Position numbers and translations under genes: made by a program
In this document: in pieces, positions 7,856 through 39,234 of the stretch
Numbering within the stretch: position 1 is the stretch's first letter
Layout: the number at the start of each line of letters is the position of its first letter
The notes under the pieces: model-generated
Databases searched by the model: none
Told to the model about the DNA's origin: nothing
What the model saw: the letters and a program-made list of their open reading frames with translations, nothing else
From: Neovahlkampfia damariscottae
Lineage: Eukaryota; Heterolobosea; Selenaionea; Neovahlkampfiida; Neovahlkampfiidae
Reading direction: 5' to 3'
DNA: 64,000 bases
Assembly: GCA_016618085.1 (NCBI GenBank)
Contig: JABLTG010000028.1
Span: forward strand, 78,344 to 142,343

Positions 7856-8919
7856 GATGTTGGTGTTGATGGACCACTTAAAGATGCAGGATTTGATTTT
7901 CAATCATTTACAAAACGTGGAGGTTATTATGATTGGACAAGAGAATTGGATACATTCACAGAAGAAGAAAAGAAGGAAATTTTAAATAGAAGAAATTCCA
8001 AAAGAAATAATTTAATTTCATCTGTTTGTTTTATGTTATGGACAAAGTGTAATTATTCTTGTGAATTTTGCTGGCATCCAGATAAACAAGAAGACTCAAA
8101 ATTTGATCTTTCAGCAGCAAGACATGCAATCTCATTATTAATTCAAAATGGAGCAAAAAAAATTGTAAGCCAATCATTTACTATTGATAAAAATAGAATT
8201 TTTGTGGAGGTGAACCATTCTACAAGAAAAAAGGAGAACATTTAGGTGAATTATTAAAATATACAAAATTATTGGATCAAGATTGTTTTACGTCAGTAGT
8301 GTCCAATGGAAGTTTAATTGAAGAAAAATGGATGGAAAACTACTCAAAATATCTTGATTCATTAGCAATTAGTGTTGACTCATTTGAAAAAGAAACAAAT
8401 CAAAAAATTGGTAGAAAAGATTTAAAACAATCAACTCTTCCATTCTCCAAATTATTACAACTCAAACATTTTTGTGAAAAATATGAAATTAAATTTAAAT
8501 TAAATACAGTAGTAAATACATCAAATTATGAAGAAAATATGATAAACTTTGTGAAAGAATTAAATCCAATTCGTTGGAAAGTATTTCAAGTTGCTCCTCG
8601 ATACAATCAAAATTATGGTCCTGATGCTCCAAATAGAATGAATGTCGAAAAATACTTGATTTCAAAAAATCAATTTCAGTCATTTGTTGATTTTCACAAA
8701 AAAGAAATACCATATTTACAAGATGAATCAGTTGATGATTTAGATAATTCTTATCTTGTTTTAGATCCAAATTATTGTTTTTCTTTTGCATTGGATGATG
8801 GAACAGAAAAACCAACAAAATCTATCTTGGACATTGGTGTTGAAAATGCATTGAAAGAATCAAGTTTTTGTGAAGAAAAACGAAGAAACAGGAAAGGTTC
8901 AGGATTTGACATTGAATAA
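7856..8919 (+). CDS. Viperin-like radical-SAM enzyme
   Basis: Two exons (7856-8164, 8197-8919; 32-nt intron) hold a near-complete radical-SAM enzyme. It has CNYSCEFC (CX3CX2C cluster), then GGEPFYKK after the splice, a VVSNGS strand, and a C-terminal part with DSYLVLDPNY-like sequence and KSILDIGVENALKESSF. That order matches viperin (RSAD2), which makes the chain terminator ddhCTP from CTP and restricts viruses. The frame is open upstream but lacks an ATG until 8033, directly before the cluster, so it may depend on the broken upstream fragment. The last residues diverge from the family after SSF, which suggests a second frame change. Activity is doubtful; the family assignment is fairly good. 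Confidence 0.6.
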
Positions 8920-10195: not shown

Positions 10196-10660
10196 TTATT
10201 TTTTCATACAACAATTTTTAAATTTCTTATTAGAACCACACTCACATTTTGAATGAGGATCTTTAAATTTTTCTTCTTTTGCCAAATCAAATAAATTTGG
10301 GTTAGTTGTGGCACTCGTTGGATTATCTATTTTTCTAATATTCATTTCATTTAACAAATCATCTGGTGTAAAAGTTCCTGCTATTTTTTCATAGTTTTTA
10401 TTGAAAACTGAATATGCAGAAATTCCTGTTTTCTTTCCAGAAAAATCCAAATTGAAAAATATTAATAACATGGTTGTTAATATTAAATAAATTATCATAA
10501 ATTCATTTTGATAACAAACTTTACAGAAATAGATCCAAAAAGTTATGAAAAATATAAATATCCATCTTCTTGAGAAAATATCTACCATTTTGTATTTATA
10601 GTAAGAAACATACCAAAGAATTGGATTTTCTATAGCATTACATTTAAAAAATTTGCTCAT
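10196..10660 (-). CDS. SAYSD1-like membrane protein with SEC-C motif
   Basis: The start is placed at the ATG at 10660 (MSKFFKCNAIENP), 37 nt after TGATTGG at 10697-10703. The longer open frame would begin upstream of that element's end. Two hydrophobic helices (RRWIFIFFITFWIYF and IIYLILTTMLLIFFNL) precede the family hallmark SAYSVFNKNYEKIAGTFT. The C-terminus carries a SEC-C zinc motif, CECGSNKKFKNCC. SAYSvFN proteins sit in the ER membrane; human SAYSD1 binds UFMylated ribosomes at the translocon. The SEC-C ending is a variation on that layout. Family call good, exact role inferred. Confidence 0.75.
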   Translation of the reverse strand: MSKFFKCNAIENPILWYVSYYKYKMVDIFSRRWIFIFFITFWIYFCKVCYQNEFMIIYLILTTMLLIFFNLDFSGKKTGISAYSVFNKNYEKIAGTFTPDDLLNEMNIRKIDNPTSATTNPNLFDLAKEEKFKDPHSKCECGSNKKFKNCCMKK

Positions 10661-10696
10661 CCTTGTTATTGAACTTGAAAAATTGAAAAACAATTT

Positions 10697-10703
10697 TGAT
10701 TGG
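10697..10703. promoter_or_regulatory. CCAATCA-type element, bidirectional
   Basis: TGATTGG on plus (CCAATCA on minus) sits 37 nt before the SAYSD1-like start and 22 nt before the small ORF at 10725. It is probably shared. Confidence 0.5.
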
Positions 10704-10724
10704 CCTCTTTGATACATTCAATCA

Positions 10725-10889
10725 ATGAATAATGCTTTAACTTCAGATGAATCGATCAAATATGCACTTTCATGTCCAATGCATTGGAATATAATAATAC
10801 ACAACATCAATCCAGAAACGACAAGTAAAATTCAGTACATGAAAGAAATTGAAAATCTTAAAATCGGAAATATGGAATCAAGTCCTTGA
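10725..10889 (+). CDS. Small ORF, unknown (possible truncated gene)
   Basis: Fifty-four codons and a stop (MNNALTSDESIKYALSCPMH at the start), 22 nt after the shared CCAAT-type element. I do not recognise it. Its proximity to a host-type promoter suggests the 5' end of a gene whose remainder may have been lost at the left edge of the viral insertion. It could equally be a chance frame. Confidence 0.3.
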   Translation: MNNALTSDESIKYALSCPMHWNIIIHNINPETTSKIQYMKEIENLKIGNMESSP

Positions 10890-11310
10890 AAATTCAAAAC
10901 AATAAGACTCCCAGGTAATTAGTCACGTTATCAGAATAAACATCAGTTTCCAAGTTGAAGTTTGTGGTTTCAACCGAACAAAGATGGTTTTTTGATTATA
11001 ACGTTACTTTTTTCCGAATAAATGTGGCTAATCTGAACAAGTAGTGTTATTCCGAATAAGTAGGTTTTCAACAAATAAGTAGTATTACTACGAACAAGAA
11101 CTATAAAAGCGCATTAAAATAACTAACAAATATTCACAACTTTCGAATATCCAAGAGTAGATAGTCTCCAGACAGTCCTCTTTATTTTTTTGTTCAGTCA
11201 GTCGTTTTATCAAATTTTAGTCGTACATTTGCGCTTTTCACAATACATTTCACTTATTCACTCATTTACAGTTACTCAAACTCATTTCAAACTCATTCAT
11301 TCATTCAAAT
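10890..11310 (+). other. Left flank of endogenous virus; repeats and long leader
   Basis: No gene. Around 11010-11100 there are degenerate short repeats built on GAATAAGTAG and GAACAAGTAG. A TATAAAAG box follows at 11102-11109, then about 200 nt of leader before the capsid-type ATG at 11311. I could not identify a terminal inverted repeat, so the insertion boundary lies somewhere in this stretch. Confidence 0.35.
11102..11109 (+). promoter_or_regulatory. TATA box before the capsid-type gene
   Basis: TATAAAAG, about 200 nt upstream of the ATG at 11311. Host genes in the window use CCAATCA-type elements instead; none is present here. Confidence 0.4.
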
Positions 11311-12647
11311 ATGCAATCAGAACCAAATCAAATTTATCAATCATTAATCTCAAGTGTCAAACAACACATTTCATTTGAAATTTATCAAGAAGCTATTTTT
11401 AAACCACTTCAAACCAACAAATTCGAAGGAGAAAAAATTTCTGAAATCACTACTACTTTCAAATTTTAACTTGTCAATCCAGAGAAATTTCTCAAGCATC
11501 ACTTGAATCTCAGAGAAATCTACGACCACCCAGCTGAAAGCCTTGTCAAACAACACAAAGTCTTAGATTTTAAAGACAGAGATATTGCTGTGATTCTTAC
11601 AATCAAACAAACACCGTAAAAGATATGCAATATTCAGCAACCTTTGCAAATTATGAAAGAATGTTTTGTTTCAAAAGAGCGATGAAAGCAAATTCAACTT
11701 TGGAAAATATTGATGCTACACTTGTCAGCTATGATTTATACTTCCAATATTATACACCTAAATTGCTCTCTAATATTCCAAAAACTGTTGTTTACCCACA
11801 TCAAGAAATTGAATTTTATCCATCCAACACAGTAGAAGGTACAGCAGGAACTGAATTCACATTGAATTTTAATTCTTTGAACCTTTCGGGTGTTCCAAGA
11901 AAAATGATACTGTGGATTTCAGAAAGACATTCAGATATCGTCGGAATTGGAGCAAGTAAATTAAATCTTGAAAATTTACGTAAAACTGATACAGCAAAGG
12001 CTAAAATTAACAGTGTGAGCATTACATATGGAAATAGACAATCCACCTTAGCAAATGCGAAACCTGAAGATTTGTACGAAATTGCAAAGAAAAGAGGATT
12101 AAATATGACTTACAAACAATTCGTCAAATATATTGGATCATATTGTGCATTTGAATTTGGTGAAGATATTCCATTATCTGAAAGTGAAGCACCTGGTCTT
12201 AATTCAAATCCTCAATTATCAATGACTGTCAAAGGTATTGATGTTGATGGAGTAGATAGACATTGGCAATTAAATACTGTTCTTTTCTTTGATGGGGTTG
12301 TTACAATTGTCAATGGTGGTTCATGTATCAAACAAAGAAACGTTTTGAATGCTAATGATATTATTGATACATTGCAAAGAGATTACGAAATGGTTTATCC
12401 ATCAGCTTATCATCAAAATCGATTTGGTGGTAGTCCACTTGCTGTTTTGTCATCAATTTTACCGATTGCCAAGGGAATTCGAGGAGCAATTCAAACAGGT
12501 GCACCTATTGCTAAAATGATTGCTGACGGAGCTGAAAAAATCGGTTTAGGTGTAGCAGTCAATGAAAAAGGCAAAAAGAAAAAAGCAGGTAGAATTTCAG
12601 GCGGTGAAGTAATCAGCAGGTCCCAGTTGTCAAGTAATGGTTATTAA
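11311..12647 (+). pseudogene. Capsid-type (jelly-roll) protein, broken
   Basis: The ATG at 11311 opens a frame interrupted by an in-frame TAA at 11467-11469 and ended by TAA at 11617-11619. The intact downstream frame (11625-12647) continues the protein in another phase, so there is one stop plus one frameshift. The long part has capsid-like beta-rich sequence (IEFYPSNTVEGTAGTEFTL, LSGVPRKMILWISERHSD, SITYGNRQSTLANAKPEDLY). It ends in a glycine/lysine-rich tail with SPLAVLSSILPIAKGIRG and GKKKKAGRISGG, typical of small DNA virus capsid proteins. The exact family and whether it is the major or penton protein are not certain. It is convergent with the next gene across an inverted repeat. Confidence 0.55.
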
Positions 12648-12703
12648 ATTAATTAAATAATTTGTTTTTTCATTATCTTCAATAAATAATGAAAATTATC
12701 TCC

Positions 12704-12806
12704 CATAAAATGTTGTCCTTAAAAAGTAAAATAAATTTTTTTTAAAATAGAAAAATATTAAAAATTAAAAAAATGTTTTTGTGAAAATCAAGGACAACAT
12801 TTTATG
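12704..12806. repeat. Inverted repeat 1 (TGTTGTCCT core)
   Basis: Perfect 17-nt arms at 12704-12720 (CATAAAATGTTGTCCTT) and 12790-12806, separated by 69 nt of AT-rich sequence. It lies between the convergent capsid-type genes. It shares its core with the repeats at 14550 and 14974. Confidence 0.85.
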
Positions 12807-12821
12807 TAAATGAAAATATGA

Positions 12822-13910
12822 TTAAAATTGATTATCAAACTTTTTAAAATATAATTTCATAGTTGATGTACTATTTGGTGAAACTAATAACGGTTCCAAA
12901 CGACCATGTTGATCCATATAGTAAGCTTGAATATCAATATATTTGATATCATCAGCAACCAACATATCAATCCATTCGAAATTAACAGCTGTGTATGTTT
13001 GTAATGATCTTGAGTGTAAAGCGGATTTATCTTCTAAATCAAATTCAAAGTTTTTCAAAATTCTATCATTTTCTGTGGTTGTAGTTGAAACAAAGTCTCT
13101 TGTACTGTTGAAAAATTCAGTTCTAATTGGTAGTTGACTTGTTGTAAAGACAATGCTTCTAATTTGATATAATTTGTAAATGGTACAATAAAATCCTTGA
13201 ACTAATATTGCATCTGCTCCTGTACTTGTATTTATTGCTAAATTTCTTGTTTGAATTACTTCATTTTTAATATTGTTGTTACCAGAATAATAAACATCAA
13301 TTCTAATATCTCTACCTTGGTCCAAATTTGCTTTTGTATGTGGAAAATTATTAAATAAATTCCATAGGTTGCTATTCATGTAAAGTTTATGAGTATCCAA
13401 TAAATTCATAAATTCAGTTGGAAATACAATATCAATGATAGCGGTGTTTCTATCAAAAACAAAATATGGAACTTTTGCGTCATTTACATTTGTATTTAAA
13501 CATGCTTCTAAAACTGCTTTGTTCAAAATTTGCAAGAATTGATCAATTGTCCAAATTTTTAGATCACTCGAATCTGCATCATTAAAACTTTCATGTTGTA
13601 AATAAGATTGATAAACATTGCCATCAATATCTTGAACTGTGACAGAATAATATTGGTTGTTTGGTGTTCTGTATGTTTGATTTAATTCATATGATGAGTA
13701 TTAAGTTGATGGGAAAAACATGATCGGGGTTTCACTTGTGTCAACTTCAAATCTCGCAACAGCAAGTTTGTAATCGCTGGCTTTTTTAATAATTGGAATA
13801 CCACGATTATCATTGTATCTAAATGGTTTTGGAACTCCATCTTTGTTAACTGCAATAATATCATAATAAACGTTGTCAGTGTCTGGTTCTGTATAATAAT
13901 TTAGCATCAC
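12822..13910 (-). pseudogene. Second capsid-type structural protein, one internal stop
   Basis: From the ATG at 13910 the frame is continuous to 12822 except for a single TAA at 13701-13703; both sides are in the same phase. Features include a strand-rich C-terminal region with RSIVFTTSQLPIRTEF, then YIDIQAYYMDQHGRLEPLL and a final KLYFKKF. This resembles virion structural proteins found in endogenous DNA viruses of invertebrates and protists. TATATAA lies just before the ATG (13912-13918), and no host CCAAT element is present. Whether this is the major or the minor capsid protein I cannot say. The lone stop could be decay, an assembly error or readthrough. Confidence 0.5.
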
Positions 13911-13931
13911 TTATATAATGTGGTTAGATTT

Positions 13932-14503
13932 TTATTTTTGAAATACATCATCATACAAATCTACAATAACAAAGTCGTCATAATTTGCTTTTTTCAATCC
14001 CATTTGTTTTAATTCTTTTACTCCTCTTTCCATCATGTTTTTGTATTCTTTTAATGATAAATGTTTGTTTGAATTCTTTTAATACAATGCCATCCACAAG
14101 TTTGCACTGGAGGAGTTTTCTTCTGAAATTTGTAATGATTGTAACTTAATTTATATGGTGAATTTAACATCAGCCAACTTAAATATGTGTGATCTTGTTT
14201 TAATTTTTTATTCATGTTAAAGTCTGTGAATTTTAATTGCTTATCTGGAAACAAACTGTATGGATCAAAAAATTCAACTTCTTTATCAGAAATCTTATTT
14301 AAACAACAGTAATGCCCATATTGGTCTGTTTGGAGGTACATAATAATTACAGAACCATTATTCATATGTAATAAATGCTCCAAAGTGTCATAATTTTGTA
14401 ATTCTGAATAAATTAATAACTTATGTCCTGATATCCTTTGAATTTCTGCATCTGATAGTGGATAGTGTTTTAACGGTTCTATTTTTTGTTTTAAATCTGC
14501 CAT
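13932..14503 (-). pseudogene. Adenain-like cysteine protease, frameshifted
   Basis: The ATG at 14503 opens 150 residues with the adenovirus-protease arrangement. A histidine lies in YGHYCCLNK, an acidic residue in VEFFDPYSLFPD, then a glutamine-containing strand and the nucleophile in TCGWHC. This frame ends at 14051. In the next phase a helical tail rich in lysine continues to a stop at 13932, so one frameshift lies just after the catalytic cysteine. Related proteases in Polintons, virophages and adenoviruses process capsid precursors. TATAATATAA directly precedes the ATG. It is co-oriented with the capsid-type gene downstream. Confidence 0.6.
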
Positions 14504-14549
14504 TTATATTATAGCCAAATAAAATATAAATTAAAAAATAAACATCCAC

Positions 14550-14647
14550 AAATTGTTGTCCTTAAAAGTTGAAAAAAAATAATTTTCTGATTGGATAATT
14601 TCTTGTTTTTAAAAAAATGTTTTCCCAACTTTTAAGGACAACAATTT
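14550..14647. repeat. Inverted repeat 2 (TGTTGTCCTT core)
   Basis: Perfect 22-nt arms at 14550-14571 and 14626-14647, flanked by further imperfect pairing (AAATAAACATC / GATGTGTTTATTT). It lies between the divergent protease gene and the ORF at 14694. The core TTGTTGTCCTTAA matches repeats 1 and 3. Confidence 0.85.
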
Positions 14648-14693
14648 GGAGATGTGTTTATTTTAAAATAATAATTTATAAATTTATCATATA

Positions 14694-14966
14694 ATGTCAG
14701 TAAAACTAGCTTACGTATTTTGGAGTTACGACGGCGCTCCAACAGATAATGAAATTGAAATTATTGAAGGTAAAGATTATGACGATTTATATAATAAATT
14801 CTATGAATTATTAGATGATACATTCGAGATTGATAATGAACTAGAAGATGCAGAGGTCGATTATCGTAAACTTAAAGGGATAAAAGGAATTTACAAATTA
14901 TTAGATGTCATTTATTATTATTTAATTGATAGTTTTAATGTAGCTGTAATTGTGAAATTTTTATAA
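14694..14966 (+). CDS. Small viral-region ORF, unknown
   Basis: Ninety residues starting MSVKLAYVFWSYDGAPTDNE, strongly acidic, with a short hydrophobic C-terminus (YYYLIDSFNVAVIVKFL). CATATA immediately precedes the ATG. It sits between two inverted repeats and stops 8 nt before the third. I do not recognise the family. An intact frame among decayed neighbours suggests a real small viral gene. Confidence 0.45.
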   Translation: MSVKLAYVFWSYDGAPTDNEIEIIEGKDYDDLYNKFYELLDDTFEIDNELEDAEVDYRKLKGIKGIYKLLDVIYYYLIDSFNVAVIVKFL

Positions 14967-14973
14967 ACTTAAA

Positions 14974-15079
14974 TTCCAAAATGTTGTCCTGAATTTTCAT
15001 AAAAACATTTTTTTAATTTTCAGATATTTTTAATATTTGAAAAAATTTATTTCTAACTTTTCAGGACAACAATTTGGAA
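14974..15079. repeat. Inverted repeat 3 (TGTTGTCCTGA core)
   Basis: Nineteen-nt arms at 14974-14992 and 15061-15079 with one mismatch, 68-nt spacer. It follows the stop of the 14694 ORF and precedes the 15124 ORF. It shares TGTTGTCCT/AGGACAACA with repeats 1 and 2. Confidence 0.82.
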
Positions 15080-15123
15080 AATTTTGATATAAAGAAATTA
15101 ATATAATATAATATATACAAGCG

Positions 15124-15348
15124 ATGAAGAAATTAAATCTATCTGAAGAAGAAAGAAAAGAATATTACAAAAGATATAATGCAGAATATTATCAAAGAAA
15201 CAAAGAAAGAATGCAAGCAATAATGTTAAGACCTGTATTTTGTCCTCATTGTCACATCGACGTGCCAAAATGTAGATACTTAAGACATTGCACATCAATG
15301 CGTCACCAAAGAAATGAACAAAATAATGAAAATATTGAATTGGTTTAA
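15124..15348 (+). CDS. Small C2H2-like zinc-binding protein
   Basis: Seventy-four residues. An N-terminal basic helix (SEEERKEYYKRYNAEYYQRN) leads to FCPHCHIDVPKCRYLRHCTS and MRHQRN. The CxxC and downstream His residues form a C2H2-like finger similar to small fingers found in large DNA viruses and homing-type nucleases. ATATAATATA repeats lie just upstream and no host CCAAT element is present. DNA binding is inferred. Confidence 0.5.
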   Translation: MKKLNLSEEERKEYYKRYNAEYYQRNKERMQAIMLRPVFCPHCHIDVPKCRYLRHCTSMRHQRNEQNNENIELV

Positions 15349-15389
15349 ATTGGTTTAAAGAAATATGTAGATTATATATTATAACAAAT

Positions 15390-15698
15390 ATGGGATACAT
15401 GAAAAACTTAGAAATTGAAAGAAAAAACTTAATTACTGATATGCAAAAAGTTATTAAATTGACAATTTTAGCTGCATCATTGTCAGACTTATCAAATAAT
15501 AAAACAAAGAAAGAAACTGAAGAAAAAACAACTGAAGTTATGTTGCTTCATTGTATGACACTGAAATCATTTGAAGATGGTGACAAATTTGTAAAGAATT
15601 GTGAAAAAGATCCAAATTATTTGAACAGCAGAAAGAAATTAGTTAGTGAGCTTTTAAATGCATGCAAAGAAGGTTTTGGAATTTGCACTTCAAATTAA
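15390..15698 (+). CDS. Small helical ORF, unknown
   Basis: An intact 102-residue frame starting MGYMKNLEIERKNLITDMQK. It is predicted mostly helical and lysine-rich, with three cysteines. TATATATTATAA lies a few bases before the ATG, like the other viral-region genes. Unrecognised. Confidence 0.4.
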   Translation: MGYMKNLEIERKNLITDMQKVIKLTILAASLSDLSNNKTKKETEEKTTEVMLLHCMTLKSFEDGDKFVKNCEKDPNYLNSRKKLVSELLNACKEGFGICTSN

Positions 15699-15743
15699 AA
15701 TCATTTAATTGATTATCATTTTAATTGAAATGATAATTACAAA

Positions 15744-15812
15744 CTTATCAGATGGAATTGAACCACGCTTACGGGTTATGAGCCCGTCGTCATCCCACTT
15801 GACCATGATAAG
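15744..15812 (-). tRNA. tRNA-Met (CAU)
   Basis: The minus strand folds into a cloverleaf. Acceptor CTTATCA/TGATAAG has seven perfect pairs, the D arm is GTC...GAC, and the anticodon stem ACGGG/CCCGT has loop CTCATAA (anticodon CAU). The T arm around GGTTCAATTCC has four good pairs. A-box TGGTCAAGTGGG and B-box GGTTCAATTCC are both present. No CCA is encoded. It lies inside the viral element, so it may be a viral tRNA gene, although a host gene cannot be excluded. CAU could also belong to an Ile tRNA with modified C. Confidence 0.75.
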
Positions 15813-15851
15813 AAAAATACAATTTGTATCTTTCTTGTATTTAAAATAGGA

Positions 15852-15974
15852 ATTAAAGGTAGGAGTTGAACCTACTATGGCGTCACAATGTAACCTTTAT
15901 TTGGAGTAAAGAATGTGAACTCATTACCGTCATGTTTCCTACATGATTACTAGCACCTTGCTAATTTCTTTAAT
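15852..15974 (-). tRNA. tRNA-like gene, unusual length, identity unclear
   Basis: The minus strand shows paired ends ATTAAAG/CTTTAAT, an A-box-like TAGCAAGGTGC and a perfect T arm GTAGG-TTCAACT-CCTAC with B-box. The span is 123 nt, too long for a plain tRNA. Two candidate anticodon arms exist: TCATG-TAGGAAA-CATGA (reads GGA) and CTTTA-CTCCAAA-TAAAG (reads CCA). The extra length could be an intron, a giant variable arm or decay. Confidence 0.35.
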
Positions 15975-15997
15975 TTCTATATACTTATTTGAGATAA

Positions 15998-16153
15998 TTA
16001 TTTTGTTTTCTTTCCATATAATCTCACTTGACCTTTTCTATAACATTCTAAATATGTTCCTTCCCTCTGTCCTTTCTTTGTGGGTTTTGCTCCACAATAT
16101 GGTTTTAATGGCTTTCCTCTTTTCTTCAGAGGTGTTTCTCCTGCTTTTCTCAT
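15998..16153 (-). CDS. Small basic viral-type protein
   Basis: A 51-residue frame from the ATG at 16153. It is very basic and contains KRGKPLKPYCGAKP followed by KKGQREGTYLECYRKGQVRL. Short basic proteins with a KKGQR...QVRLYG pattern occur in large and medium DNA viruses of protists, as far as I recall; function unknown. ATATATG overlaps the start. A longer hydrophobic frame on the other strand is its shadow. Confidence 0.5.
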   Translation of the reverse strand: MRKAGETPLKKRGKPLKPYCGAKPTKKGQREGTYLECYRKGQVRLYGKKTK

Positions 16154-16171
16154 ATATCATTAGTTTAGATT

Positions 16172-16342
16172 TTAATTCTGGTATTTGTTTAGGTGTGCTT
16201 GCAAAATTGATTGTTTGACAGTTTCATCAGGATCTTTATTTACCACATTTGTGAATGTGATGGTGATCTTATTTCTCATTTCTCTGAAACCATTTTGAAA
16301 AATTTTATTGATTTCTAAGTGTTTTATTTCAAATTTGATCAT
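16172..16342 (-). CDS. Small ORF, unknown, right edge of viral element
   Basis: A 56-residue frame (MIKFEIKHLEINKIFQNGFR at the start) ending 18 nt before the next viral-type ORF on the same strand. An AATATTTAA string lies upstream. It is not recognised; it is listed because its spacing and orientation match the neighbouring small viral ORF. Confidence 0.35.
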   Translation of the reverse strand: MIKFEIKHLEINKIFQNGFREMRNKITITFTNVVNKDPDETVKQSILQAHLNKYQN

Positions 16343-16403
16343 TTATTGCTTGACTTAAATATTTAATAATAATTTTTCTGTTGAATTTATTTATCCAATA
16401 AAA

Positions 16404-16783
16404 ATGCTTTCAAAAAAAGAAGTTTTGGAAGCAGTAAAACAAAATGGTTCTTCACTTAGATTTGCATCTAAGAAATTACAAAATGATAAAGAAGTGGTTT
16501 TGGAAGCAGTAAAACAGATAGTTCTTCACTTGAATATGCATCTAAGGAATTACAAAATGATAAAGAAGTAGTTTTGGAAGCATTAAAACGAAATGGTTAT
16601 TCTCTTAATTATGCATCTGAGGAATTAAAAGGGGACAAAGAAATTGAATGGATATCCAAAAAATATTTCAAATTCATCAGAGAAATTTCTGCATATAACG
16701 TTATGTTTCACTTTAAATATTCAAGTGAAAACAGAAAACAAATTAATTTTGATGAAAATAATCCGTCAAAGAAAATGAAATAA
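16404..16783 (+). pseudogene. DUF4116 repeat fragment, frameshifted
   Basis: The ATG at 16404 follows a CCAATAA element. Two and a half DUF4116 repeats are visible (LEAVKQNGSSLRFASKKLQN, then EYASKEL..., NYASEELKGDKEIEWISKK). A one-base deletion near 16515 shifts the frame; the remainder continues to 16783. It ends like the full-length DUF4116 gene at 37111 (KEIxWxxxKxF...REI). This looks like a truncated paralogue sitting at the right edge of the viral element. Confidence 0.6.
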
Positions 16784-16899
16784 ATTTATATAATATTAAA
16801 TATTTAAAGTTTTAAACACAAGTGGAAATAATTCGAGTGGATGCAACAGTCCAAATGGTAACCATGCGGATTTCAAAAATACAATTATTTTTTTGTTTC

Positions 16900-17027
16900 A
16901 TTCCTGAGCAGCAATGGTACTTGCAGAGGCCTCGCTAGAGGAAACTGGAATGAAATTTTAATTTCCGAGCGTGTTTATCTGCAAGTACCAACCTTGCTGC
17001 TTCTTTCATTCAATTTATTCAGGAATA
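16900..17027. ncRNA. Long structured inverted repeat, possible ncRNA
   Basis: Nested pairing: ATTCCTGA (16900-16907) with TCAGGAAT (17020-17027), GCAGCAA (16908-16914) with TTGCTGC (16994-17000), and TGGTACTTGCAG (16915-16926) with CTGCAAGTACCA (16979-16990). An internal CCTC-GCTA-GAGG hairpin lies within. The 3' arm overlaps the last codons and stop of the 2H gene on the minus strand. No known RNA family was recognised. It could be an ncRNA, a 3'-end hairpin or a remnant of an inverted duplication. Confidence 0.4.
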
Positions 17028-17664
17028 CATTCAAAATGCGGTTTGGAATCATTCTTTCCAACTGGAATGACATACCTATTTTGATAAATCAAATCGATGT
17101 CTTTCGTAAAAAAATATACCTCTTTAACTTCAAATTCAACAGGTTTCCATTGTTGTTCCATCAATTCAATTGTCTTTTTTGCAGTCAATTCATCACCAAC
17201 TTTTCCAATAGTGATATGATGTTGAAATCCTCCTTCTTGTTCATCAAATTTACCAATACAATCCGGAAATACATTCAAAATAGTTTGATGAAATTGTTGA
17301 AAAACTCCTTCTTCCTTTAAGTATTAAAATTAGTTTTGTTTTACTTTTGATTCTGCTTTTAGGAAGATGTTAACTTGTTTTTTAAAAATGAAATAATCAA
17401 ATTCTTTTAACACAACTATGAAAGGTTCAATTTTTGACAATGGGACAGTTAATGATTTTACAGCATTTTTCATTTTTTTATATGGATAAAATGGTTTGAC
17501 TAAAGTTATGTGTGGTTTTTCATTCACACTTTTTGAATTATAAATCTTTCTTAATTTATTTATTTGAGTGAAAGTGTTTTCTGGTGGGCAAATTCCAACC
17601 TAATAATTAATTAAACTCAATGAGTTACAAATGAAGTTCTTGATGTTTTTTGATAAGTTGACAT
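17015..17664 (-). CDS. 2H phosphoesterase (2'-5' RNA ligase-like), copy A
   Basis: Three exons with introns at 17600-17628 and 17315-17344. The ATG at 17664 (MSTYQKTSRTSF) lies 27 nt after a CCAATCA (17690-17696, minus). The product has the two H-h-T motifs of the 2H superfamily: PHITLVKPF in the N-terminal half and HHITIGKV in the C-terminal half. These enzymes (2'-5' RNA ligase/cyclic phosphodiesterase, ThpR, USB1 relatives) act on 2'-phosphate or cyclic phosphate ends of RNA or nucleotides. Length about 195 residues fits the family. It is nearly identical in two long blocks to copy B. Confidence 0.75.
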
Positions 17665-17782
17665 TTGGGTTGACAAATTCAGTTCACTTTGATTGGTTTT
17701 AAAAAATAACTTGGTTCAATTCTAAAATTGACGTTTTTTTTTCCAGTGTTTCAAAGAAATATTTATAAATTATTGATTCAAT

Positions 17783-18662
17783 TTACTCAGGAATGCAATC
17801 AAAATGAGGTTTAGAACTGTTCATTCCCAATTGAACAACAAATCTGTTTTGATAAGTTGAATCGAAATCTTTTGATCGAAAATATACCTCTTTAACTTCA
17901 AATTCAACAGGTTTCCATTGTTGTTCCATCAATTCAATTGTCTTTTTTGCAGTCAATTCATCACCAACTTTTCCAATAGTGATATGATGTTGAAATCCTC
18001 CTTCTTGTTCATCAAATTTACCAATACAATCCGGAAATACATTCAAAATAGTTTCATGAAAATTTTGAAAAACTCCTTCCTCCTACAAATAAAGATGAGT
18101 AAATTTTTGTTTTACTTTTGATTCTGCTTTCAGGAATATCGAAACTTGTTTTTTAAAAATGAAATAATCAAATTCTTTTAACACAACTATGAAAGGTTCA
18201 ATTTTTGACAATGGGACAGTTAATGATTTTACAGCATTTTTCATTTTTTTATATGGATAAAATGGTTTGACTAAAGTTATGTGTGGTTTNNNNNNNNNNN
18301 NNNNNNNNNNNNNNNNNNNNNNNNNNNNNNNNNNNNNNNNNNNNNNNNNNNNNNNNNNNNNNNNNNNNNNNNNNNNNNNNNNNNNNNNNAATAATCAAAT
18401 TCTTTTAACACAACTATGAAAGGTTCAATTTTTGACAATGGGACAGTTAATGATTTTACAGCATTTTTCATTTTTTTATATGGATAAAATGGTTTGACTA
18501 AAGTTATGTGTGGTTTCTGATTTCCACTTTTCGGTTTGTAAATTATTTTCAATTTATTAATTTGAGAAGTAGCTTTCTCTGGTGGGCAAATTCCAATCTA
18601 AAAAGTAAAATGATAAGAAAAATTACCAATGATGACCTAGATGTTTTTTGATAATTCGACAT
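17783..18662 (-). CDS. 2H phosphoesterase, copy B (contains assembly gap)
   Basis: Same layout as copy A: the ATG at 18662 (MSNYQKTSRSSL) lies 18 nt from TGATTGG (18680-18686). Exon 2 carries IGICPPEKATSQ and the first motif PHITLVKPF; exon 3 carries HHITIGKV and ends at 17783. A 100-N gap (18290-18389) falls inside exon 2, but sequence left and right of it is the same 127 nt. The extra half-copy is thus probably an artefact and only two genes exist here. Function as for copy A. Confidence 0.65.
18290..18389. other. Assembly gap (100 N) with duplicated flanks
   Basis: Exactly 100 N. The 127 nt left of it (18163-18289) are identical to the 127 nt right of it (18390-18516), which is the signature of two contig ends overlapping by one assembly k-mer that were not merged. 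Confidence 0.9.
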
Positions 18663-18731: not shown

Positions 18732-19466
18732 TTATGCTTTGAAAACAGAAGGACATTTATCTTTTGCGACACAAAACCTACAATTATTCATTGATGGCTT
18801 TGCAGGATATTTCTCTTCCCTTATTAAATTTGAAATTTTTAAAATCAATTTATGAATTGAGTTCATATCTTTCTCATTTGGTTTATATTCAATAACTTCA
18901 CCTGATTCAATTGATGATAAATAAGCTCTTTTTGGTAATTTTTGATATAAACGAACATAAGAATAACAATAAATTTGTAATTGTAATAAACTAAATGCTC
19001 TGTTTAAATGAGTTTTAAATTCCATTATAATGACTTCATTATTCTGAACTTCTTTATCTACTCTGTCAAATATACCGGTGAATCTTGTATTTTCTTCAAT
19101 ATTAAATGAAAACTTCTTTTCAATCAGTAACGGATTCGTATTTGATTTAAGACCTTCTCGTCTAAAAAAACCACTCAAATAATTCTTTCCTTTTAAAATC
19201 CAATCTTCTTCATTTTCAAGTTTTGGTTCAATTAAATTTACTTCTTTTTTCCATTCTTCCATGAATTTTGAATTTAAATCTTCAATAGAAATTTGGTTTT
19301 TATTTTTTTTTGCTTCTCCAAAAACAGCCACTGCTTCGTGAAGACTTTTCCCAAATACAGTATGAACAGTTGGAATAAAAGGCATTTTCTCTACAAATTG
19401 ATATTTAAATTTAAGTGGACATGATTGAAAAGCCTCCAAACGTGAGAAAGAGAGAAACACTTTCAT
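18732..19466 (-). CDS. Cas4/RecB-type PD-(D/E)XK nuclease with Fe-S cysteines
   Basis: An intronless 244-residue protein. The start LSFSRLEAFQSCPLKFKY is the classic opening of AddB/RecB/Cas4-like nucleases. Candidate active-site residues are H43 (KSLHEAV), D134 (GIFDRVD) and E149/K151 (MEFKT), followed by QLQIYCY. Cys16 plus Cys229, Cys232 and Cys238 (CRFCVAKDKC) match the 4Fe-4S cluster layout of this family. It is free-standing, unlike the DNA2 fusion at 32.6 kb. The family is mostly prokaryotic and viral; transfer is plausible but unproven. A role in DNA end processing is inferred. Confidence 0.75.
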   Translation of the reverse strand: MKVFLSFSRLEAFQSCPLKFKYQFVEKMPFIPTVHTVFGKSLHEAVAVFGEAKKNKNQISIEDLNSKFMEEWKKEVNLIEPKLENEEDWILKGKNYLSGFFRREGLKSNTNPLLIEKKFSFNIEENTRFTGIFDRVDKEVQNNEVIIMEFKTHLNRAFSLLQLQIYCYSYVRLYQKLPKRAYLSSIESGEVIEYKPNEKDMNSIHKLILKISNLIREEKYPAKPSMNNCRFCVAKDKCPSVFKA

Positions 19467-37110: not shown

Positions 37111-39234
37111 ATGTACAAGAATAGGTCAAAGAAAAGGTCTTTTATGGAAAAATTAAGGTCCAATTTCTTAAAAAAATTCAAAACATCTGTAAAAGCTCCA
37201 AGTTTTGAAGATATACCTTCAGAGTTGTATGATGATAGAGAAACGATGACATTTATTGCTTCAACATCAGAAAATTTACTTTGTTCTAGAAATCTTGAAA
37301 AATGGTTGAACGATTCGGACATAATTAAAGTGGCCTTGAAAAGAAGTTCATTTATTTATCCATTTATTCATCCAAACTTACAAAAAGATAAATCAATAGG
37401 CTTGATTTATGCTCAACATGGTTTTTTTATTTATAATGAACTTCCAAAAGAACTTCAAAGAGATAAAGACGTAATCTACGCATTAGCATCTTCAGAACAT
37501 ATTTGTATTGGACATTCTTTTCCTTCAAAATTTTATATACCAGAAGAACTTCAGGAAGATTTAGAATTCGCATTGAAAGTTGTTGAAAAACTGCCAGATT
37601 TATACAAATATTTTTCAAAAAAACTACAAGGAAATGAAAAATTAACTTATTTAGCGATTTCAAAAGACGGAGAATTATTTCAATATTCATCAGATGATTT
37701 ACGAGGAAATTATGAATTTGTTCTGGAGGCTTTATTTGCATCTCCAGTATGTTTTGAATTTATATCAAAGAAACTTCAAAATAATATTGATATATTGTTA
37801 AATGTAGTTGGTCATTGCCCTAAATATTTGAACTACTCTGTCAATTCATCAATTTTTAAAAAAGAAAATATATTCAAATTATTGAAAAGAAATGCGTATT
37901 GTTATAAATATTTACCAGAAATATATCAAAATGACATAGATATCGCTTTATTTGCTTTGGAATCAAATCATGAAATTTATCCAATTTTGAATTCTCAACT
38001 TAGAGGAAACAAAGAAATAACAATAAAAGCAATTGAAAAAAATCCGTTGAACATTTTCAAAACCACAAAAGAAATGAAAAATGAAGAAGATGTTGTCTTT
38101 GTTGCTGTGAAAAATAGTCTGACAACGTTTCAATTTGCTTCAGATGAATTGAAAAATTCAAAGAAATTTGTTACGAAATTATTGAACGAAACTAAATTTG
38201 CAGATGCAAATATGATAAGTAAAGATCTAAGAAATGATTTAGAGTTGATGCTATTATTTTGTAAAAAAAATGGAAATAATCTTGAATTCGCTTCAAACAA
38301 TCTGAAAAACAATTCTGAACTTGTTTTAGAAGCAATAAGAACAACTCCAATTTCATTTGAATTTGCATCTTTAGAAATGAAGAAAAATAAACAAATAGTT
38401 GAATATGCATTGAAGAGTGATGGATTCAATATTATTTATTTGAATGAACAAACTTTAACTGACAAAGATATAAACAAAATTGCATTAGAATCAAATCCAA
38501 AATGTTATCCATTTTGTTTAGAAAAGTGGAGATTTGACAGAGAACTAAGTGAGCCATACATTATCAAATATCCACTCAATATTGAATTTTCTTCAAAAGA
38601 AATGCAAAATGACGAAGAATTGTTGAAAATTTTACTGAAGAACAATGGAATATGTTTAAATTTTGCTTCAGAAAAGATCAAACAATCTTTGGAATTAGTC
38701 ACCATAGCAGTTGAAAATATTGGAATTTCTTTGGCATTTGCTTCAGAACATCTTCAAAAAAATGAAAAATTAATATTTTTAGCTTTGAGAACATCACCGG
38801 AAATTGTTCAATATTTGCCATCTGTTTATTTAGATAACTTTGAAGTCATTTTACAATCAGTAAAGAAGAATGGATTGATGTTAAAGTATGCATCAAAAAG
38901 ATTGAAGAATGATAAGAATATAGTTTTACAAGCAGTCATTAACAATGGAACTTCACTTCAATATGCATCATCTCAATTAAAAGATAATAAAGAAATCGTA
39001 TTGACAGCTTTGAAGGATCATTTGAATGCTTTACAGATGGCATCTAAAAGATTAAGATATGACAGAGATATTGTTATTCAAACTGTAAAACATGGAATGA
39101 AATTAAATTATGATCAATGGAATGATTTGAAAAAAGACAAAGAAATCAGTTGGTTACTTTCAAAACGCTTCTTGTTGATTAGAGAAATTCCTTTTCAAAA
39201 TATTGGATTTCGATTTGACAGATTCAATGAATAG
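37111..39234 (+). CDS. DUF4116 repeat protein
   Basis: Intronless, about 700 residues made of roughly 13 or more repeats of about 45 residues. Each has the DUF4116 pattern: two helices with (L/F)xxAS(x)xL(K/Q)xNxEivlxAl (for example YASKRLKNDKNIVLQAVINN). Such repeats are common in amoebae, algae and giant viruses. Function is unknown and probably protein binding. A frameshifted fragment of a relative lies at 16404-16783. The true start may be the ATG at 37144. Confidence 0.8.
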   Translation: MYKNRSKKRSFMEKLRSNFLKKFKTSVKAPSFEDIPSELYDDRETMTFIASTSENLLCSRNLEKWLNDSDIIKVALKRSSFIYPFIHPNLQKDKSIGLIYAQHGFFIYNELPKELQRDKDVIYALASSEHICIGHSFPSKFYIPEELQEDLEFALKVVEKLPDLYKYFSKKLQGNEKLTYLAISKDGELFQYSSDDLRGNYEFVLEALFASPVCFEFISKKLQNNIDILLNVVGHCPKYLNYSVNSSIFKKENIFKLLKRNAYCYKYLPEIYQNDIDIALFALESNHEIYPILNSQLRGNKEITIKAIEKNPLNIFKTTKEMKNEEDVVFVAVKNSLTTFQFASDELKNSKKFVTKLLNETKFADANMISKDLRNDLELMLLFCKKNGNNLEFASNNLKNNSELVLEAIRTTPISFEFASLEMKKNKQIVEYALKSDGFNIIYLNEQTLTDKDINKIALESNPKCYPFCLEKWRFDRELSEPYIIKYPLNIEFSSKEMQNDEELLKILLKNNGICLNFASEKIKQSLELVTIAVENIGISLAFASEHLQKNEKLIFLALRTSPEIVQYLPSVYLDNFEVILQSVKKNGLMLKYASKRLKNDKNIVLQAVINNGTSLQYASSQLKDNKEIVLTALKDHLNALQMASKRLRYDRDIVIQTVKHGMKLNYDQWNDLKKDKEISWLLSKRFLLIREIPFQNIGFRFDRFNE

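Follow-up and report, generated by a model that had tools for sequence, protein, structure and literature searches.

The stretch analysed here, hereafter the window, comprises 64 kb of the Neovahlkampfia damariscottae genome (20.4 Mb in 307 contigs) and is part of contig 209 (142 kb); it is AT-rich and its gene content is eukaryotic in kind. A segment of ~5.4 kb (11616-17001), flanked by host-type genes, carries from left to right the end of a major capsid gene, a penton gene, a maturation protease gene, a group of small open reading frames (ORFs) with a tRNA gene, and a terminal palindrome, with three hairpins in the intergenic spaces. The original prediction, made from the letters of the DNA, had described a decayed endogenous virus between host genes, and all the parts that it listed are present. 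We conclude that this copy is, with high probability, a dead, internally deleted remnant of an integrated virophage.

The capsid gene occupies 11616-12647 on the forward strand. Its ORF (11625-12647, 340 codons) matches the Pfam family MCP_V20_C (PF22031) with 46.5 bits and E 3.6e-12, against a cut-off of 27, and Sputnik V20 in the PDB (3j26, E 1.8e-13), scores that identify a virophage-like hexon in the scheme of Roux 2023 (PMC9952930). The ORF corresponds to the C-terminal ~59% of a protein of ~580 amino acids (aa), homology beginning at 11616, and four of the six database capsid relatives are full length (545-579 aa). An AlphaFold model built on a 7-row alignment is fair only, with a mean predicted local distance difference test score (pLDDT) of 54.6 and 125 of 340 residues at 70 or above. 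When the predicted structure was compared with the PDB, a check that had been proposed for the ORF, the top five places all went to major capsid chains of Sputnik and mavirus (E 5.4e-11 to 7.1e-9, probability 1.00, query TM-scores only 0.45-0.48), Sputnik being best (E 5.4e-11) and mavirus second-best. A search of PHROGs gave only weak, unnamed matches. On these scores the protein is a Sputnik-type virophage major capsid protein, and the earlier view that the capsid fits no family that could be named is not supported.

The convergent penton (minor capsid) gene, at 12825-13907 on the reverse strand, has 361 codons and aligns to P0007 across residues 1-361 with 80.6% identity, interrupted by exactly one in-frame stop. 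The Sputnik V18/19 minor capsid domain PF21507 is precomputed in all six database penton homologues, one of them aligned full-length, and it is through these that the virophage-like penton, expected and not required in PMC9952930, is recognised. The N-terminal 69-aa piece falls below the Pfam cut-off (E 0.023), the 237-aa piece has no Pfam match, and the predicted model is poor (pLDDT 46). The two capsid-type proteins first noticed are thus both real, the former as a C-terminal part and the latter as a penton gene with one stop, and the fold of the one and the homologues of the other agree with the virophage/Polinton-like lineage that had been suggested.

Beyond the penton gene lies a Ulp1/adenain-like maturation cysteine protease gene (13935-14503, reverse strand) with 22 database homologues. 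A 17-row alignment shows no change in the His and Asp columns and conservation of the Cys column in >90% of rows; the window copy retains all three, which we take to be catalytic by analogy with adenain, as the first reading of the letters had it. These columns are what the window copy offers towards the virophage-like cysteine protease listed among the criteria of PMC9952930, and Pfam adds a sub-threshold C39 match only. A frameshift near codon 146 places the last 45 residues in another frame.

The right part of the segment consists of smaller features. A 90-codon ORF without assigned function (14694-14966, forward strand) has a broken copy on contig 269. It is followed on the same strand by a small C2H2-like gene (15124-15348), which has 25 matches in the genome, itself included, and by a 102-codon ORF (15390-15698) with relatives of 49, 38 and 30% identity on contigs 7, 292 and 282. 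On the reverse strand lie a tRNA-Met (CAT) gene with a full cloverleaf (15743-15812, 51.3 bits) and a small basic KKGQR-type frame (16001-16156), open from stop to stop with no ATG at its start; contigs 7 and 292 have the same frame, also open. As had been proposed, genuine parts of the element include the C2H2-like gene, the tRNA and the KKGQR protein. A DUF4116-like repeat gene fragment (16413-16783, forward strand) is continuous on contig 163 with sequence of the element; the domain assignment comes from scores of related ORFs and not of the fragment itself. The segment closes with a palindrome of the form AGCAGC...GCTGCT (16907-17001), and similarity to contig 269 also ends at 17001, which places the right terminus there and not at 16345, where the original prediction had drawn it. 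Contig 282 shows the same AGCAGC/GCTGCT design at one end, and the contig 7 element has it at both.

Several of these features extend beyond the segment. The matches of the C2H2-like gene are 32-100% identical, and because many lie on contigs without a capsid match, the gene may mark further elements in the genome. DUF4116 repeat proteins are also encoded at 37111-39234, far from the remnant, and at L029:6419-6892, beside the virophage element of contig 303. Contig 269 contains a tRNA-related stretch whose anticodon ARAGORN cannot assign. Two Lake Baikal virophages, LBV4 and LBV13, are reported to carry a tRNA-Met CAT as well (PMC10741620), so that tRNAs are already known from virophages.

The capsid protein finds 29 matches on 21 contigs of the genome, self included, at 30-100% identity; contigs 226, 227 and 181 contribute matches shorter than 100 aa only, which a published filter might drop. 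Five other capsid frames, on contigs 252, 133, 274, 104 and 7, are uninterrupted from stop to stop (584-637 aa), those of contigs 133 and 104 measuring 581 aa from the ATG. Contigs 274, 252, 104, 214, 188 and 245 repeat all or part of one gene order, with the genes facing the same way relative to one another: fibre-like, capsid, penton, protease, ATPase-like, p528/p587, p378. On contigs 7 and 26 the ATPase-like gene is reversed. This ATPase-like P-loop protein (336-373 aa) adjoins the protease in the relatives; in the window copy no match to the FtsK-HerA packaging ATPase considered in PMC9952930 was found. A further internally deleted copy is seen on contig 303 (L029, 2071-4913), in which p587 follows the capsid and the penton, protease and ATPase-like genes are missing. 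In a 15-row capsid tree the window groups with contigs 214, 188 and 206 and P0001 (99/100), apart from contigs 274/133/104, 303, 252 and 7.

Ratios of nonsynonymous to synonymous change (dN/dS), calculated by the Nei-Gojobori method, for which the high dS values are rough, are low throughout the capsid module. Comparing the window with contigs 214 and 188, they are 0.14 and 0.23 for the capsid, 0.10 and 0.08 for the C-terminal part of the penton and 0.11 and 0.09 for the protease, with dS of 0.78-1.76; the short penton N-terminal part gives 0.04 at a dS of 2.06. Against contig 7 the C2H2-like gene has a ratio of 0.08, and ORF 15390 is less constrained (0.41). The combination of low dN/dS with high dS (0.55-2.06 across all compared pairs) indicates from the sequences that the capsid, penton and protease genes evolved as working viral genes and that the compared copies probably entered the genome separately. 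Low ratios and a capsid ORF open for 340 codons could also be expected of capsid genes that the host has domesticated and retained for antiviral defence, and a mitigating effect of endogenous virophages on giant virus infection has been reported in Cafeteria (PMC10945749). Yet the penton stop, the protease frameshift and the missing capsid N-terminus speak against such retention, and the ratios compare different insertions and so reflect viral history, which makes domestication the least probable of the alternatives that we weighed.

The contig 7 relative offers the fullest view of an element of this kind. It measures ~24.8 kb and is bounded by an inverted repeat (19039-19416 / 43851-43510, 74.5% identical) whose ends both begin AGCAGC, with AATATC outside both, a 6-bp target duplication as read by eye. 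It contains the start of a retroviral-type integrase as a partial ORF (PF00665, E 6.3e-8, above the cut-off) and a 1227-aa protein with helicase domains (PF13604, E 1.3e-7, above the cut-off). A search of the genome for relatives with an ATPase, polymerase or integrase, which had been recommended, thus returned open integrase, ATPase-like and polymerase-helicase genes; for the tyrosine integrase PF00589 the genome gave no match. Since the relatives have a retroviral-type integrase, contig 7 shows a 6-bp duplication and contig 188 has a DNA_pol_B_2 match, the segment might be regarded as a Polinton/Maverick transposon and not a virophage. Polintons are defined by a Polinton-type capsid together with a full pPolB and a retroviral-type integrase. 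Here the capsid and penton match Sputnik families and the integrase is seen only in relatives, and we consider this reading very improbable, if slightly less so than domestication.

The 1227-aa protein of contig 7 and a 1329-aa protein of contig 274 (L055:5186-8869 and L022:5231-9220, both in elements with virophage-type capsids) have in common a (D/E)(A/S)CVY Cys motif, DxxKAYSSxLY, NKxIGLTGKK, TDC, GAGKT, DEIY and a C-terminal HNH-like region, and contig 133 (L025) carries a 90% relative. By these motifs, which are the sole basis for assigning the vOTU and palm domains, the helicase being assigned by Pfam domains as well, both proteins fit the Tlr1-like helicase that PMC11071308 assigns to Polinton-like viruses (PLVs) and transpovirons. 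On contig 188 a DNA_pol_B_2 match (L031:1752-2546, E 3.3e-10) is found instead, so that two replication modules occur among these virophage-type elements. Virophage hybrids are described as carrying pPolB (PMC11071308; PMC6905037), and the least described feature is the co-occurrence, in the relatives, of a Tlr1-like helicase and a virophage capsid module, within a limited cover of the literature that does not establish its absence from print.

Comparison with contig 7 indicates what the window copy has lost. Its right part (14974-16312) matches contig 7 at 21591-20279 with 74% identity, near one terminus, and its left part, from capsid to protease, matches at 37-40 kb; taken together, these matches make the window collinear with reversed contig 7 minus ~15 kb. 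Relative to that layout it lacks its left end, the N-terminal part of the capsid and the middle. The similarity on the protease side enters the second hairpin (14528-14669): with contig 7 it stops at 14617, and contig 26, which has the same hairpin between its protease and ATPase-like genes, remains similar up to 14647. The similarity to contig 269 begins at 14572. Because the two similarities overlap inside this hairpin, recombination between hairpins would be the simplest account of the deletion, with the inferred junction at 14572-14647, inside or just beside it.

The same join could have arisen in assembly, if a complete provirus stands here and reads from similar copies were collapsed into a short false join with frameshifts; false consensus of that sort in protist assemblies is reported by Bellas 2023 (PMC10120064), and the join sits at a palindrome common to several copies. 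The nearest copies found over the capsid stretch, however, show 11-23% DNA divergence, so that collapse would be harder, host-like genes flank both sides on one 142-kb contig, and the order from ORF 14694 to the tRNA is similar on contig 269, so we give an assembly artefact a small chance, the largest among the alternatives. Somewhat less probable again is a natural mini-element, a deletion derivative that would spread by means of the integrase, replication and capsids of full-length relatives. It would explain why one exact terminus, the hairpins and the capsid cluster are retained and why the right part of contig 269 is similar, but the second terminus is absent, and in none of the 31 genome matches to 14520-16400 do the protease hairpin and ORF 14694 occur together elsewhere. 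These estimates are not exclusive of an integrated virophage, as a mini-element or a domesticated gene would share that origin.

At the left, part of a second repeat family (11087-11615, forward strand), with copies on contigs 189, 117 and 142 at 90-92% identity, ends where capsid homology starts (junction 11614/11616) and replaces the capsid N-terminus and the left end. Next to it, and abutting the remnant, is a repeat of another, non-virophage family (10896-11099; no strand is assigned to it, to the hairpins or to the terminal palindrome), which occurs elsewhere in the genome in both orientations. A genome search with 10700-11640 (a 941-bp query) returned at least 41 matches, self included, many of them to 10896-11099, with 40 of 71 candidates scored, and no second copy of 10896-11099 was found within the window. 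On contigs 238 and 44 this ~200-bp repeat forms inverted pairs 1.6-2.6 kb apart, and on that pattern it is probably a small terminal-inverted-repeat transposon. As left terminus of the remnant it was rejected, because it does not resemble the AGCAGC termini in sequence and because on contigs 188 and 206 it is oriented in a way that does not fit.

Three intergenic hairpins lie in the segment, one in each kind of gene space: hairpin 1 (12698-12812) between the convergent capsid and penton genes, hairpin 2 in a divergent and hairpin 3 (14970-15083) in a same-direction space. Their shuffle z values are -5.94, -9.34 and -7.41 (200 shuffles), and the five hairpins of contig 7 give -4.63, -3.31, -7.71, -1.63 and -3.19, one of the five not being significant. 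A scan of the whole window for stems (arms with 18 of 20 complementary bases, span 70-129) found only these three sites, plus a run of N; together with the capsid E-value, this puts the element parts beyond chance. In an alignment of ten copies (two of the window's three, five of contig 7 and one each from contigs 26, 282 and 292), eight of 14 pairs have changed on both sides and 92.1% of cells pair, a level reached by none of 500 shuffles and no slid register, with the biases that the copies were chosen by matching, their orientation was set manually and the alignment itself supplied the structure. Copies with a changed core occur on contigs 7, 282 and 292. A role as plain terminators is weakened by the occurrence of the hairpins in all three kinds of space. 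Mimivirus genes are reported to end at hairpins and its satellites to share that signal (PMC7031253), and by this analogy a role as a signal is plausible and unproven. The hairpins may instead be mobile, in which case template-guided correction of imperfect palindromes could mimic covariation.

A number of points weigh against the reading of the window copy as an internally deleted virophage remnant, or against parts of it. The boundary of the deletion rests on different relatives, none of which has the protease, the hairpin and ORF 14694 adjacent, and the exact join cannot be placed because the hairpins resemble one another. The left end of this copy is lost, and with it the pair of flanks in which a target duplication would show. 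The claim that all structural genes are damaged is correct, yet two of the lesions, the penton stop and the protease frameshift, are small and could be sequence errors, and assembly errors in similar elements have been reported (Bellas 2023, PMC10120064); structural damage consists in the truncation of the capsid gene and the loss of the middle. The ATPase-like relatives reach only weak Pfam AAA matches below the cut-off (E 0.05 and 0.0014). In contigs 214, 188 and 206, which are nearest by capsid, only ~20 bases separate the aligned ends of capsid and penton, too few for hairpin 1, and the exact GTTGTCC core occurs in one of 22 fetched loci, on both of which grounds a universal hairpin signal is doubtful. 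IMG/VR yielded no confirmed relative with the capsid alone or with protease, capsid and penton alignments, a result that says little on rarity since the scans rest on a few short peptide patterns. The reading as a whole is drawn from sequence and predicted structure.

What the sequence shows is a capsid module of Sputnik type, arranged as in the family found in this genome, and one terminus of the element; the middle, the left end and the capsid N-terminus are gone. In the history that we propose, an intact ancestor with a layout like that of contig 7 would have entered the nucleus, probably during giant virus infection of the host, been inserted by a retroviral-type integrase with a 6-bp target duplication and then waited as a provirus. 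The Tlr1-like polymerase-helicase would copy it, and the intergenic hairpins may have been signals for transcription of the kind known from Mimivirus and its satellites. The middle (~15 kb, given a layout as on contig 7) would then have been lost by recombination at two hairpins, the left end would have given way to another mobile repeat, and the stop and the frameshift would have come afterwards. As the integrase, the ATPase, the polymerase-helicase and the second terminus are all absent, the window copy alone should neither move nor form particles. A more specific version, which we offer as a tentative and rather unlikely proposal, is that it is a fossil of an unnamed lineage of hybrid virophages in which a retroviral-type integrase and a Tlr1-like polymerase-helicase accompany a Sputnik-type capsid module, and some of which have similar, covarying ~100-bp palindromes between their genes. 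These palindromes would double as transcription signals of giant-virus type and as sites of recombination from which deletion derivatives like the window copy arise.

The host-type neighbours of the remnant are a SAYSvFN-domain gene (10196-10717) and a PD-(D/E)XK nuclease gene (18732-19466). Just beyond the right terminus, 17005-18289 holds duplicated 2'-5' RNA ligase-like pieces (26.7 bits against a cut-off of 27), followed by a 100-base run of N (18290-18389). Further to the left, a radical-SAM gene in two frames (7946-8919) has a CxxxCxxC motif, viperin-like by eye, and a sub-threshold Pfam Radical_SAM match. Among host proteins, S-adenosylhomocysteinase is most similar to that of Acanthamoeba castellanii (6uk3, 812 bits) and next to that of Naegleria fowleri (5v96, 778 bits; organisms as given in PMC7765604), which by itself lends no preference to a heterolobosean over an amoebozoan, and beta-tubulin was uninformative in this respect.

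Endogenous virophages as a kind are already documented in protists, and Bellas 2023 counted 21 virophage capsid genes in N. damariscottae (PMC10120064), to be set beside the 21 contigs with a capsid match found here. The window copy itself is ordinary decay, and the interest lies more in its family: one small protist genome has apparently been colonised repeatedly by divergent virophages, whose copies range from near-complete to fossil. The union of a virophage capsid with a Tlr1-like helicase and a retroviral-type integrase would tie virophages to PLVs and transpovirons, and the hairpins provide a testable connection with a helper resembling mimivirus and an easy way for deletion derivatives to form. 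In size, contig 7 at ~24.8 kb fits the 15-45 kb expected, and not required, of such genomes (PMC9952930) and the ~5.4-kb remnant falls short of it, which is why we file the window copy as a remnant derived from Maveriviricetes and do not count it as a member genome. An older criterion for virophages is that they depend on a giant virus (PMC9952930).

Among known systems, Sputnik (Sputniviroviridae) shares the major capsid family (PF22031, 3j26), the minor capsid domain PF21507 in the penton homologues and a cysteine protease; it differs in a capsid identity of 21% over the fold alignment and in that the relatives here encode a Tlr1-like helicase together with an integrase of retroviral type, the replication genes of Sputnik itself being presumably different. 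Mavirus and the endogenous virophages of Cafeteria resemble the family in being integrated in a protist genome, in the capsid as second-best fold match and, for mavirus, in a retroviral-type integrase (PMC6905037), but the window capsid is nearer to Sputnik in sequence and fold, and the polymerase of the relatives is a Tlr1-like fusion, not the pPolB of mavirus. The rumen hybrid virophages described by Yutin 2015 (PMC4409740) likewise combine a virophage capsid module with a replication module of foreign lineage and have terminal inverted repeats, the module there being a Polinton-type pPolB, whereas contigs 7 and 274, and by similarity contig 133, have a polymerase-SF1 helicase-HNH fusion. 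Tlr1-type PLVs and transpovirons, as characterised in PMC11071308, share with the relatives a vOTU-type Cys, a palm lacking the first Asp of DTD, an SF1 helicase and a C-terminal HNH in one protein, and Tlr1 also has a retroviral-type integrase; in contrast to these PLVs, the capsids here are of virophage type, and the helicase fusion is found in the relatives and is absent from the window.

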